43,678 nucleotides of DNA. It comes from Candidatus Gastranaerophilales bacterium (GTDB lineage Bacteria > Cyanobacteriota > Vampirovibrionia > Gastranaerophilales > Gastranaerophilaceae). Numbering within the stretch: the first letter of the stretch is position 1; the number at the start of each line of letters is the position of its first letter. The stretch lies in NCBI GenBank assembly GCA_944325555.1, contig CALVAN010000018.1, positions 1-43,678 of the forward strand, given 5' to 3'. The notes beneath the pieces were generated by a model. That model was not told the origin of the DNA. It did not search any database and saw nothing but the letters and a program-made list of their open reading frames with translations. Positions 3,953 through 39,957 of the stretch are shown one piece after another. The position numbers and the translations under genes were made by a program.

Positions 3953-3985
3953 AATAAAATCCCTTTATTAAATTCAATATATTTA

Positions 3986-4013
3986 ATTATAAATTATCAA
4001 GGCATATACTCAA
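3986..4013 (-). promoter_or_regulatory. Sigma70-type promoter for grpE-dnaJ
   Basis: Read on the minus strand, TTGAGT (4013-4008) and TATAAT (3991-3986) are separated by 16 nt. The -10 box is a perfect consensus. The predicted transcript would begin near 3979 and give a short leader before the grpE ATG at 3952. No CIRCE inverted repeat or recognisable sigma32 box overlaps it. Confidence 0.6.
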
Positions 4014-4025
4014 GGGAATTTAATT

Positions 4026-4089
4026 ATTTCTTAACTTTTCATAAATTTAGACTCGATAGAGTCATTGAAAGTTTCAATTGTTAAGAAAT
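4026..4089. other. Intergenic three-hairpin inverted-repeat element
   Basis: The outer arms ATTTCTTAAC (4026-4035) and GTTAAGAAAT (4080-4089) are perfect 10-bp complements. They enclose GACTC-GATA-GAGTC (4050-4063) and the near-palindrome TTGAAA-G-TTTCAA (4065-4077). This can form a junction with two inner hairpins. It lies between the grpE promoter and the small gene at 4197, so it could be an operator, a DNA cruciform or part of an RNA leader. It is not followed by a T tract, so a simple terminator is unlikely. Confidence 0.45.
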
Positions 4090-4196
4090 GTAATGAAAAA
4101 AAATAAAATTGAATTTAATAAATCGAAAATGTTTTTATATATATACGAGGTATATATAAAATATTTCAGAAGTAAAATTTGAAGAAGGAGTAAATT

Positions 4197-4358
4197 ATGA
4201 ACGTATCAGCAATCGGAAATCTATTCTCAAGCTACAAACAACCTGAAAGAGTTGAACAAAAACCGGTAGAAACAGCAGGTTCACTGGCATTTGGTTCTGT
4301 AGAAACAGCAGGTTCACTGGCTAATAATGTAGGCGGTTCATTCTCAGCTATGGCTTAA
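4197..4358 (+). CDS. Small repeat-containing peptide (53 aa), unknown function
   Basis: The open frame starts at ATG 4197, with a strong ribosome-binding site (GAAGAAGGAG, 6-7 nt upstream), and ends at TAA 4356-4358. The peptide contains two copies of VETAGSLA 11 codons apart. At the DNA level a 23-nt unit is repeated exactly (4266-4288 and 4299-4321), which points to a recent in-frame tandem duplication. The C-terminus is Gly/Ser-rich and holds a Gly-Gly pair (VGGSFSAMA). There is no membrane segment or signal peptide. It is followed by another very small gene and a terminator. I do not recognise a characterised family. It could be a secreted or processed peptide, but nothing next to it looks like a processing enzyme. 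Confidence 0.6.
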   Translation: MNVSAIGNLFSSYKQPERVEQKPVETAGSLAFGSVETAGSLANNVGGSFSAMA

Positions 4359-4413
4359 GGCAAAGTTTTAATCATACGGAGAAACGGACGACTACTATTC
4401 AACCGGGGTGGAA

Positions 4414-4566
4414 ATGACAGAAATTACAGAACTAAAAATAGCGAAATATGCTCTAATAGCCATTTTGCTAATGAGCATGGCTAATTTCTACACATCAATA
4501 AATACACTTGCACAAACTGCAACATACGGAAATTATCCGTCATTATTATCAGGCTACAACAAGTGA
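4414..4566 (+). CDS. Small membrane-type peptide (50 aa), unknown function
   Basis: The frame starts at ATG 4414, preceded by GGGGTGGAA, and ends with TGA 4564-4566. The peptide has one hydrophobic segment (about residues 12-25, YALIAILLMSMANF) flanked by a short charged N-terminus and a polar Ser/Tyr-rich tail. This suggests a single-pass membrane peptide or an uncleaved signal sequence. It lies 55 nt downstream of the repeat-containing peptide and directly before a strong terminator, so the two probably share a transcript. There is no known family. Confidence 0.5.
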   Translation: MTEITELKIAKYALIAILLMSMANFYTSINTLAQTATYGNYPSLLSGYNK

Positions 4567-4596
4567 TAATAAGCAAAAGAAATAAAGAGAAACTTA

Positions 4597-4624
4597 AAAG
4601 CACCCATAATGGGTGCTTTATTTT
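4597..4624. terminator. Bidirectional rho-independent terminator
   Basis: The stem AAAGCACCC (4597-4605) and GGGTGCTTT (4611-4619) has a 5-nt loop. It is followed by TTTATTTT on the + strand and by a T-rich stretch on the minus strand. It ends the two small rightward genes. It can also end the leftward zinc-ribbon gene, whose stop codon overlaps its edge. Confidence 0.8.
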
Positions 4625-35213: not shown

Positions 35214-36275
35214 TTATTCAGTCTTTTCTTCAGCAGACTCGGTAGCTTTTTTTCTTCCTCTTTTTTTAGGCTTTTCTTCGACATCTGCTTCCTGAGCAGG
35301 TTCAGCAGCAGGAGCTTCCTGTTTTGGTGCCTGTTTAAATTCAGCAGGTGCATCCTCACGTTCAGGATTCCATCTGTCTAAACCAAGTTGTTTTCTGATT
35401 AAACCAATGCCGACGTGCACACGCCATTCATCAATTTTGAGTTGACTTGCGATAATTTTGTGACAGCCGATAGGAGGCAAAGGCAACAATGGTTCATAAA
35501 GCATTTTAATCGCCGCCAACTGATCCGGAGAAACGGCAAGTTTACGTTTCGGGAACGGCAACTTAGGCAGCATAAGCTTTTGTCTTACAAGATTTATGCC
35601 AAAAAATACCTTTCTTGCCTCAAGACCGATTTGTTCTCCGATAACTTCATGTGCATCCGGGTTTGGCAGAGGGAGCATCTTTTTGTACAATTCTTCAATT
35701 TGAAGTAATTGTTCTTTGTTAACCAACAACTGTTTTGGCGGTCTATTTTGCGGTCTTGAAGGTCTTCTTCCGCCCATTGGAGGTCTGCCGCCTTGAGGAC
35801 GCTGAGGTCTTTGATACCCGCCTTGAGGACGGCTGTATCCGCCTTGCTGTGGTCTTTGATAGCCACCTTGATTATAGCCTCTTTGACCGCCATCTCTATC
35901 ATATGGACGTCTTTGATAGCCACCTTGCTGAGGTCTTTGATACCCGCTTTGAGGACGGCTGTATCCGCTGTGTTGAGGTCTTTGATATCCGCCTTGGTTA
36001 TAGCCCTGATTATAACCTCTTTGATTATCGTATCTCGGACGATCCTGCTGATATGGTCTTTGATAAGAATTATCAGTAGAATATCCGCCTGCACTATAAG
36101 CAGCAGGTCTTTCATAAGATGAGTTATGTTCCTGATTTTGAGAATTTTCACCCAGATCAGAACCAGTTTCTGAATCAGGTTTTTTATCAGGATATAAACA
36201 ATTTGGACAAATTACCCTTTTAGGGTTTTTTGTTTCGAATTCCGCTCCACATTTAGTACACTTATTTACATACAT
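35214..36275 (-). CDS. Zinc-ribbon, Gln/Gly/Tyr/Arg-repeat protein with a duplicated C-terminal domain
   Basis: A 353-residue protein in four parts. First, a Cys4 zinc ribbon at 6-26 (CTKC...CPNC). Second, a disordered stretch of about 100 residues (about 75-175) made of GGYQRP/GYSRP/GYNQ repeats, typical of RNA-binding or phase-separating tails. Third, two tandem copies of a domain of about 60 residues (about 185-245 and 247-307), both with the plan Q-L-x-x-I-x-x-LY-x-x-(M/L)LPLP-x(4-5)-H-x-(V/I)I. Last, a Lys/Arg-rich end with KKRGRKK. I do not know the duplicated domain. Position directly before rimM-trmD and the basic, repeat-rich composition suggest an RNA or ribosome role, which is inference. 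Confidence 0.7.
   Translation of the reverse strand: MYVNKCTKCGAEFETKNPKRVICPNCLYPDKKPDSETGSDLGENSQNQEHNSSYERPAAYSAGGYSTDNSYQRPYQQDRPRYDNQRGYNQGYNQGGYQRPQHSGYSRPQSGYQRPQQGGYQRRPYDRDGGQRGYNQGGYQRPQQGGYSRPQGGYQRPQRPQGGRPPMGGRRPSRPQNRPPKQLLVNKEQLLQIEELYKKMLPLPNPDAHEVIGEQIGLEARKVFFGINLVRQKLMLPKLPFPKRKLAVSPDQLAAIKMLYEPLLPLPPIGCHKIIASQLKIDEWRVHVGIGLIRKQLGLDRWNPEREDAPAEFKQAPKQEAPAAEPAQEADVEEKPKKRGRKKATESAEEKTE
35795..36065 (-). repeat. Degenerate tandem repeats coding for GGYQRP-type units
   Basis: Short in-frame repeats in the gene at 35214-36275, with recurring sense-strand phrases such as GGCTATCAAAGACC and TATCAAAGACC. Near-identical longer blocks occur at about 35801-35850 and 35925-35970. These repeats also keep other frames open, which explains the long shadow frames here. 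Such a tract is prone to slippage and length variation between strains. Confidence 0.75.
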
Positions 36276-36610
36276 TTTTGACTACCCTTTGAAGTAAAAG
36301 GCGAAAGGCTATTAAAAATTTTAGCTCCTCGACATCTTATTAATTAAAAATTCTAATATCTTATAATATTCTATACGCAAACATAATATTAGGCAAGCTT
36401 TTTTATTTTTTTATATAGTCAACTGCCCCCGACAACTCATTAAACAGGCGCAATAAATAAGTACAATATTGGCTATACAACAAGGGCACCGGCAACAAGT
36501 GACGGGGGCACTTGAGCAAAATTATAGCTTATGAGACCTCACTACCTCTGCTAATTGTTATCACAAATCCGGATATCCTCGGGTACAAGCGAGGTTCCTC
36601 TCAAACAAAA
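36276..36610 (-). ncRNA. Structured 335-nt intergenic region, candidate RNA or leader
   Basis: No gene is evident. The strongest structure is a 13-position stem, TCAA-C-TGCCCCCG (36419-36431) with CGGGGGCA-C-TTGA (36503-36515), broken by one mismatch. An alternative hairpin CAAGTG (36496-36501)/CACTTG (36509-36514) puts the G-rich strand (36503-36508) in its loop, from where it could pair with CCCCCG at 36426-36431 as a pseudoknot. A further hairpin CCTCG (36577-36581)/CGAGG (36590-36594) is extended by GGA/TCC. The region is clearly less AT-rich than its surroundings. Strand is assumed from the flanking genes. I could not match it to tmRNA, SRP RNA, RNase P RNA or a known riboswitch. Confidence 0.45.
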
Positions 36611-37057
36611 TTAATCAGCAGACTTATTTAAAACAAAAGTCACAGGACCGTCATTAACTAGCGAAACATCCATCATAGCAGCAAAAACGCCTGTTTTTAC
36701 TTTTAATTTAGTTTGTTCTAACCTCTTAACGAACTGTTCGTACATATTCTTTGCAACATCAGGTTTTTCCGCATTATCAAAACTCGGACGTGTTCCCTTT
36801 TTACAATCAGCCGCAAGCGTAAATTGAGAAACCACAAGAATTTCTCCGTTTACATCAGCTATAGATTTGTTCATTTTGCCATCTTCATCTTCAAAAAATC
36901 TAAGAGATAGTATTTTTTTAACAAACCAATCAAGGCACTCCTGTGTATCGCCTTTTTCTACGCAAAAAAGAATCAGCATGCCGGCTTCTATTGAAGAAAA
37001 AAGTTCATTATCAATAGTCACAGAGGCTTTTTTTACTCTTTGGATAACAGCTTTCAT
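36611..37057 (-). CDS. dtd: D-aminoacyl-tRNA deacylase
   Basis: Removes D-amino acids wrongly attached to tRNA. The 148-residue protein starts MKAVIQRVKKASVTID and has the two family motifs: SQFTLAAD (usually SQFTLYAD, with the catalytic Thr) and NDGPVTFVL (the Gly-Pro chiral-proofreading motif). The Tyr-to-Ala change in SQFTL-x-AD is minor. The length is normal. Its ATG overlaps the stop of the Maf-like gene by 4 bases, so it is translationally coupled to a flagellar modification gene. Confidence 0.95.
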   Translation of the reverse strand: MKAVIQRVKKASVTIDNELFSSIEAGMLILFCVEKGDTQECLDWFVKKILSLRFFEDEDGKMNKSIADVNGEILVVSQFTLAADCKKGTRPSFDNAEKPDVAKNMYEQFVKRLEQTKLKVKTGVFAAMMDVSLVNDGPVTFVLNKSAD

Positions 37058-39000: not shown

Positions 39001-39171
39001 ACAGACCTCTTTGCCTTTTAATATAAGTATTATAGCAAAATGTATAAAAAATGTTTTTTTAAATTAACCACATGGTCTAATTAAATTTAACCCTGAGGCC
39101 AATAACTTTTATCGATAAAATCCCTAAAATAAAATAGTAAACTAATAAATTTAACTTACGGGGAAGAGATA

Positions 39172-39957
39172 TTGGGGATAAAATATAAAAGTGTGGTACA
39201 GGGACTTGATGCCTTTGTTATTAAACCGCAAAATTACCAAAGAACTGAAGCATATAAGGCATTTGTAAAAGCAGACGCTCTTAGACTTACAAATCATTTC
39301 AGAGAATCCATAAAACACTATCTTTCTGCATTAATGCTTGACAGAAACAATTATCGTGTTTACAAAGGTCTTGGTATTTCTTATAAAGCGGAAAAAGACT
39401 ACGACAAAGCCGTAAAATATCTTGAACAGGCAAGAGCAATGTCTTACTTTTCCCCTGATATACACTATGAACTCGGGCTATGTTATATGCTGACAGGCCA
39501 ATTTTGTGATGCTATAAAATGTTTTCACCATACAATTTCTCTTGACAGAAACAATCTTAATGCACAGGTTCAGCTTGGTGTTGCGCATGAGTGCATAGAA
39601 GAATATGATATGGCGATACTGATATATCACACTATTATAGAGAACAATCCTTCATATATGAGTGCATACAATCATCTTTCAGCTTTATATATGAACATAG
39701 GCGACTTTAAAGCGGCAGGCAATGTGTTTTCTCAACTGTTAAAGATTAACCCTGCTTTTAACAAGGCTTATCTGGGGCTTGCAATATGTTTTGATAAAAT
39801 GTCACACAAAACACGTGCACTGCATTATTACAAAATGTTCTTAGACAAAAAACCGCACTCACACCACGGAGAAAAAATCAGAAGAAGAATTGATAAACTA
39901 ACACGCCAAAAAGAAGCATCAGCAGAAAGCAGAGCTTTAGCAATAGTTAATGACTAA
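39172..39957 (+). CDS. TPR protein (261 aa)
   Basis: A soluble protein with about six TPR units from residue 18 on, for example NNYRVYKGLGISYKAEKDYD and YFSPDIHYELGLCYMLTGQF. The C-terminal tail is basic (KIRRRIDKLTRQKE). The start is TTG at 39172, supported by GGGGAAGAG at good spacing; the next in-frame ATG is far into the domain. The last four bases overlap the end of the convergent gene at 39954. The partner is unknown. Confidence 0.8.
   Translation: MGIKYKSVVQGLDAFVIKPQNYQRTEAYKAFVKADALRLTNHFRESIKHYLSALMLDRNNYRVYKGLGISYKAEKDYDKAVKYLEQARAMSYFSPDIHYELGLCYMLTGQFCDAIKCFHHTISLDRNNLNAQVQLGVAHECIEEYDMAILIYHTIIENNPSYMSAYNHLSALYMNIGDFKAAGNVFSQLLKINPAFNKAYLGLAICFDKMSHKTRALHYYKMFLDKKPHSHHGEKIRRRIDKLTRQKEASAESRALAIVND

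Follow-up and report, generated by a model that had tools for sequence, protein, structure and literature searches.

The window, i.e. the whole 43,678-nt stretch of Candidatus Gastranaerophilales DNA that was analysed, contains between dtd and a zinc-ribbon/RNA-binding-like gene a 335-nt gap (36276-36610), for which the original prediction had proposed a GC-rich structured RNA with mutually exclusive pairings, of the kind typical of riboswitches or regulated leaders. This raises the question of whether the stretch belongs to the dtd locus or is found elsewhere as well. The gap is real, and the proposed interval 36419-36598 is indeed GC-rich (45.6% against 35.3% for the whole window). Other gaps of more than 300 nt exist, contrary to what had been stated, since simple ORF calling also displays 3953-4622 and 39001-39333. 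The limits of the structured unit had to be corrected to 36409-36607 on the minus strand (Table 1). That no known family could be assigned has held: an Rfam scan gave no match at the gathering score and noise matches only at E<=10, and a search for tRNA and tmRNA gave none.

Table 1. Features at the locus between dtd and the RNA-binding-like gene, in window positions.
Feature	Position	Strand	Remarks
dtd	36611-37057	minus	
Copy of dispersed mobile repeat, 199 nt	36409-36607	minus	3 nt behind dtd stop codon
Conserved 5′ end	36589-36607	minus	window copy TGTTTGAGAGGAACCTCGC, consensus TGTCTGAGNGGGACCTCGC
5′ domain stem	36536-36595	minus	ACCTCGCT (36595-36588) / AGTGAGGT (36543-36536), fold of window copy
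Hairpin with C-rich loop	36496-36514	minus	CAAGTG-CCCCCGT-CACTTG
Long-range stem	36424-36510	minus	TGCCCCCG (36510-36503) / CGGGGGCA (36431-36424)
Apical helix	36445-36492	minus	CCGGTGC (36492-36486) / GCGCCTG (36451-36445); best covarying; one C.U mismatch here
Conserved 3′ end	36409-36425	minus	window copy CAGTTGACTATATAAAA, consensus CAGTTGACNATATGAAA
Ancestral intergenic segment, outside element	36276-36404	minus	78-99% identity, orthologous loci of 20 same-genus genomes without element
Zinc-ribbon/RNA-binding-like gene	35214-36275	minus	

Comparison of the orthologous loci revealed that the element is absent from the dtd/RNA-binding-gene site in 20 of 20 same-genus genomes, one of which (G010) informs on the right flank only, as its upstream segment is not dtd. 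The empty site of G016 reads ...AATCAATTTATAAAAAAGCTTGCC, and the filled site of the window reads ...AATTAATTT-[199 nt]-AAATAAAAAAGCTTGCC; other copies of the element likewise display clean presence and absence at several sites. The window copy was inserted behind dtd after the host species had split from the sampled relatives. What remains in front of the RNA-binding-like gene, ~130 nt, is conserved throughout the genus and is the probable promoter or leader of that gene.

The stretch behind dtd is repeated in its own genome (G000; 2.3 Mb, 60 contigs), where its comparison yielded 177 candidates, 40 of them scored at 80-92% identity. The basic unit is ~177 nt long, with the ends TGTCTGAGNGGGACCTCGC...GGRGTCAGTTGACNATATGAAA. 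In pattern searches, from which all genome-wide copy counts were obtained, the 3′ end GTCAGTTGACTATATGAAA had 110 matches at <=3 mismatches against 2 for the reversed control pattern, and the 5′ end had 95 against 0; the merged ends correspond to ~130 whole or partial copies in the host genome. Copies that could be delimited measure between 148 and 543 bp, most often 177 bp, and many contigs of the host assembly start or stop within a copy. No protein is encoded by the element, whose unit is too short for a transposase, and no transposase gene was present in the few longer copies that were read. The stretch behind dtd is almost certainly a copy of a non-coding, transposase-free mobile repeat.

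The mobility of the element is also seen in another species of Ca. Gastranaerophilales, genome G011 (public records BRZ_AN__bin36), which has 165 3′ ends and many identical 176-nt copies. Two near-identical copies, ~400 nt apart, interrupt a UvrD/Rep-type helicase gene (L390, G011:C3:58400-60200), the pieces of which still match the UvrD N- and C-terminal domains, and another interrupts a nitroreductase-like gene. The identical copies and the interrupted genes show that the element was recently mobile. When the joined flanks were compared with uninterrupted relatives, one additional nucleotide was recorded at both sites with a spanning alignment. Insertions are usually intergenic and sometimes gene-breaking, in every orientation relative to genes. 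The element has no terminal inverted repeats, and over 119 junctions flanks of 1 or 3-5 bp match no more often than expected, nor do they at shifted boundaries; matching flanks of 2 bp are slightly in excess (34 against 23.6, p 0.008). At these junctions, position -4 of the target is A in 85% of cases, and the positions between -3 and +3 are A or T in 84-98%; the left flank is AT-rich, and no fixed tetra- or pentanucleotide precedes the insertions. At one copy, L063 (G000:C46:3046-3222), ~40 bp of host sequence are near-perfectly duplicated in direct orientation around the element, unlike all others read.

These observations decide the fate of the leader hypothesis. A cis-acting riboswitch or regulated leader/terminator of dtd or of the downstream RNA-binding-like gene would agree with the location between two co-oriented genes, on the transcribed strand, and with the competing pairings. 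However, the site is empty in the 20 relatives, ~130 copies lie beside unrelated genes in all orientations, copies occur inside coding sequence in G011, and Rfam gives no match. As the same element is present at ~130 unrelated places and absent here in relatives, the riboswitch reading of the dtd locus fails and is now scarcely credible, and an ancestral function of this kind is already refuted. The element is a passenger at this locus, and any effect on dtd or on the downstream RNA is putative.

The window copy is an internally deleted, diverged relative of longer versions of the element. The longer copies contain an extra GCATCCTG..GATTTGTATGGCTCGCC block with an insert of ~140 nt inside it, as well as palindromes framed by ACTCT..AGAGGT, the arms of which are completely different between copies. 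This palindromic module is free-standing in G002, adjoining the gene of a RAYT (REP-associated tyrosine transposase), and is therefore an independent small element nesting in the mobile repeat. A second family, of small palindromic elements, ACTCTGCCGA-[palindrome]-TGAGAGG, has conserved frames and arms unrelated between copies; it is located upstream of the RAYT (L324) and inside many element copies (L060, L068, L095, L198). Two unusual arrangements were recorded in G000. L132 (G000:C13:21049) is a fold-back remnant, in which the 5′ end of the element stands before an inverted copy of itself (TGTCTGAGAGG-GACCTCGCTG-CCTCTCAGGCA), and L116 (G000:C4:12300-13250) has an rdgB/ham1-like gene between the 5′ half of the element and a 14-nt match to its 3′ end, possibly a rearranged copy.

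The minus strand of the window copy folds better than chance (-61.2 kcal/mol, z -3.24, 1 of 200 shuffles equally good); the plus-strand fold is not beyond shuffles (z -1.2), and with DNA parameters folding is weaker (z -0.88). Covariation was evaluated in alignments of the 3′ domain (33 sequences, A1) and of the full core (26 sequences, A2). Cells changed on both sides of a pair number 34 against 11.6 in shuffles (0 of 500), and this compensatory count collapses once the partners are slid by one column. The compensatory changes are located in two helices, the apical helix (pair 96-142, CG 13, GC 9, UA 3, AU 1; pair 97-141, UA 14, GC 10, AU 1; 0 of 500 shuffles) and the 5′ stem, whose counterpart in the 177-nt core, CTCGC/GCGAG, covaries at pair 16-47 (CG 17, UA 6, UG 2). 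The core counterpart of the hairpin, AAGUG/CACUU, has a standard pair in 98.5% of cells, its variation being mostly G-U wobble. On the consensus strand 464 cells are Watson-Crick, 48 wobble and 16 broken, while the same pairs on the complement strand give 1 wobble and 63 mismatched or broken cells. As wobble pairs are kept on the consensus strand only, the folded strand is that of the window's minus strand, and we hold with high confidence that this fold is under selection.

The long-range stem and the competing hairpin that had been foreseen at this locus are both present, and the C-rich loop on the minus strand can pair with the same G-rich segment. The hairpin either excludes the long-range stem or is pseudoknotted with its 3′ strand, so that hairpin loop and long-range stem compete in the fold. 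In the long-range stem of the window copy, C-G replaces the A-U of most copies. This change supports pairing of the hairpin loop with the 3′ GGRGU segment, but 13 of the 26 sequences do not form pair 80-160, so that support for a pseudoknot or long stem is only partial. Thus a covarying structure with mutually exclusive pairings has survived from the original prediction and its assignment as riboswitch or leader of the dtd locus has not; the covariation that it called for was found, but between dispersed copies rather than orthologous leaders.

Conservation of wobble pairs fits RNA and single-stranded DNA equally well. A SINE-like retro-element, copied via RNA by reverse transcription, was considered, given the RNA-like fold and the A-rich 3′ end. 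Besides the RNA-style wobble conservation on one strand, several copies in G002, G134 and G000 that are 5′-truncated but keep their 3′ ends intact are in line with such a mode of copying, but 3′-truncated copies are about as common and there are no long target duplications. RVT_1 is absent from the high-copy genomes G000, G001, G016 and G019, and among the high-copy genomes tested a reverse transcriptase was present in G134 and G014 only. We consider copying via RNA unlikely.

The orientation of the copies provides a further indication. In G000, neighbouring copies on a contig tend to share their orientation (58 of 80 adjacent pairs against 39.8 expected); part of this clustering is due to copies at contig ends, and with interior copies only the values are 31 of 46 against 23 (p 0.014). 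Clustering was also recorded in G011 (37 of 53 against 26.8, p 0.003). Orientation in G000 tracks local GC skew for all copies (57 of 77) and for interior copies (42 of 63, MW p 0.0015), and at contig level 14 of 17 signs agree (Spearman 0.51, p 0.03); in G011 the link is a trend (38 of 67, MW p 0.07; p 0.06-0.07). No association of orientation with coding direction was found in G000 (p 0.89). There is moderate evidence, therefore, that orientation follows GC skew and not gene direction. The G-rich strand is, as a rule, the lagging-strand template, and this rule would place the folded strand on the strand that replication forks expose, a reading based on skew rather than on a mapped origin, in genomes whose GC skew is weak.

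Two further alternatives are affected by these results. A DDE transposase acting on an ordinary MITE, one whose inverted ends are degenerate and whose target duplication is 1-2 bp long, could produce the slight excess of 2-bp matching flanks and the extra nucleotide at the two gene-interrupting sites. The ends of such a MITE should correspond, but TGTCTGAG and the reverse complement TTTCATATAGTC mismatch; there is no duplication signal of 1 bp or of >=3 bp, and a GC-skew orientation bias is not expected of double-strand DDE transposition, which together make a MITE doubtful. Domesticated BOX-like regulatory repeats, giving transcripts a common stability or termination element, would have the modular build and the whole-element covarying fold observed here, and many copies do lie just behind stop codons. 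The independence of orientation from gene direction and the interruption of genes in G011 render such a regulatory role very unlikely.

No mobilising enzyme was found for the element. In the search for an autonomous parent, those unpaired 5′ or 3′ ends that were pursued proved to be truncated copies, none being a transposase-bearing version, and no IS605-type transposon with matching subterminal palindromes was found in the host genome. The sole Y1 enzyme found there is a RAYT (G000:C13:23994-24527; L323 1477-2013; NF047646 E=6e-42, PDB 4er8 E=2e-23), which sits between two element copies, the right copy starting directly after its stop codon, and has its own hairpin, GTTGGGCATACCTGCCCAAC, upstream, different from that of the element. 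The placement of this bona fide enzyme makes a REPIN/REP-type element moved by the resident RAYT an obvious candidate. Yet element ends were looked for around five other full-length RAYTs and flank none of them, although the contig of one is too short for its upstream side to be checked. A hairpin of their own, GTTGGG..CCCAAC, frequently preceded by GTAG, accompanies most RAYTs, and its sequence is unlike the element ends. The element-rich genomes G021 and G134 have no Y1/RAYT match, and G011 has only a broken RAYT fragment with a stop. The element is a 177-nt unit rather than two inverted REPs of 20-40 nt, and a GTAG/GTGG foot matching RAYT-flanking repeats was not found in it. The resident RAYT is weakened as mobiliser by the hairpins and flanks of other RAYTs and by the RAYT-less element-rich genomes, and mobilisation of this kind is quite unlikely.

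The element has neither inverted ends nor duplications and its orientation follows the skew, a combination that speaks for transposition of folded single-stranded DNA by an enzyme acting in trans. The folded strand is most likely the moving form: during replication it would fold where the lagging-strand template is single-stranded, and the trans-acting enzyme would excise it and reinsert it there, in the manner of IS200/IS605-type transposition. Two members of that family, IS608 and ISDra2, use the lagging-strand template in transposition (PMC6006769). As an overall description, we favour with modest confidence a mobile repeat of gut Candidatus Gastranaerophilales that is non-coding, lacks a transposase and probably moves as folded single-stranded DNA; single-stranded-DNA mobilisation, taken by itself, is finely balanced and leans slightly towards doubt. 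More speculatively, the ~177-nt fold in its entirety, with its switch between hairpin and long stem, may be the recognition signal of a single-strand mobilising system. The element would then represent a new class of structured, enzyme-less mobile DNA, a hitch-hiker of the replication fork and a landing pad for a second hairpin family with freely changing arms, a tentative and less than probable extension.

Of 241 genomes of the order Ca. Gastranaerophilales, 15 were found with a covariance model to contain the element; they belong to 3 of the 50 genera sampled, and copy number is very uneven within the genus (0 to >100). A scan of contig records matched Ca. Gastranaerophilales records and sets titled 'uncultured Clostridia' and 'uncultured bacterium'. 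Among these, CAMEWS records (L217, L235, L285 and others) titled 'uncultured Clostridia bacterium' carry the element, and this title is probably a misassignment. Carriage by phages was not indicated by 2.9 million viral contigs (0 exact matches). In the literature searched, no paper on transposable elements of Gastranaerophilales or on intergenic repeats of Melainabacteria was found, nor the element itself.

The analysis disposes of a false riboswitch candidate and gives a name to a repeat which is probably responsible for many contig breaks in these genomes. The element is a clear test case for how very small mobile DNA spreads when it has no terminal repeats, no target duplications and no enzyme of its own. 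If its fold is kept by one-strand compensation and its orientation follows replication, the role of single-stranded DNA structure in transposition becomes testable outside IS608 and ISDra2. The element may also serve in strain typing of uncultured Gastranaerophilales.

Several known families resemble the element in part. The small dispersed repeats (SDRs) of cyanobacteria (cited in PMC3116915), compared by description only, are also small mobile repeats and are much shorter. REPINs and their RAYTs (PMC3116915, PMC6006769) share with it a short non-coding repeat family, single-strand hairpins and a RAYT in the genome, but the element is not built of paired REPs and RAYT presence does not track it. 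The BOX elements of Streptococcus pneumoniae (PMC3049150) are similarly composite, with conserved outer and optional inner modules and a predicted RNA fold, a resemblance of build only. Sequence and fold differ, and the element nests palindromes with unrelated arms, whereas BOX has a tandem array of inner modules.

The palindrome-associated transposable elements (PATEs) of Haloquadratum are non-autonomous IS605-type relatives (PMC3119063). Like the element, they are free of transposase, terminal inverted repeats and target duplication, have palindromes near their ends and tens to hundreds of copies, and are hit by nested small palindromic elements (SMR-A) (PMC3119063). The element differs from them in its covarying fold over the ~177-nt unit and in an A(W)3 left flank in place of a fixed target, and an IS605-type parent sharing its end palindromes was not found. 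The element is not classed as a PATE because neither such a parent nor a fixed target was found; by build and behaviour, the PATEs of Haloquadratum are nevertheless the nearest known system, and the element is PATE-like in kind.
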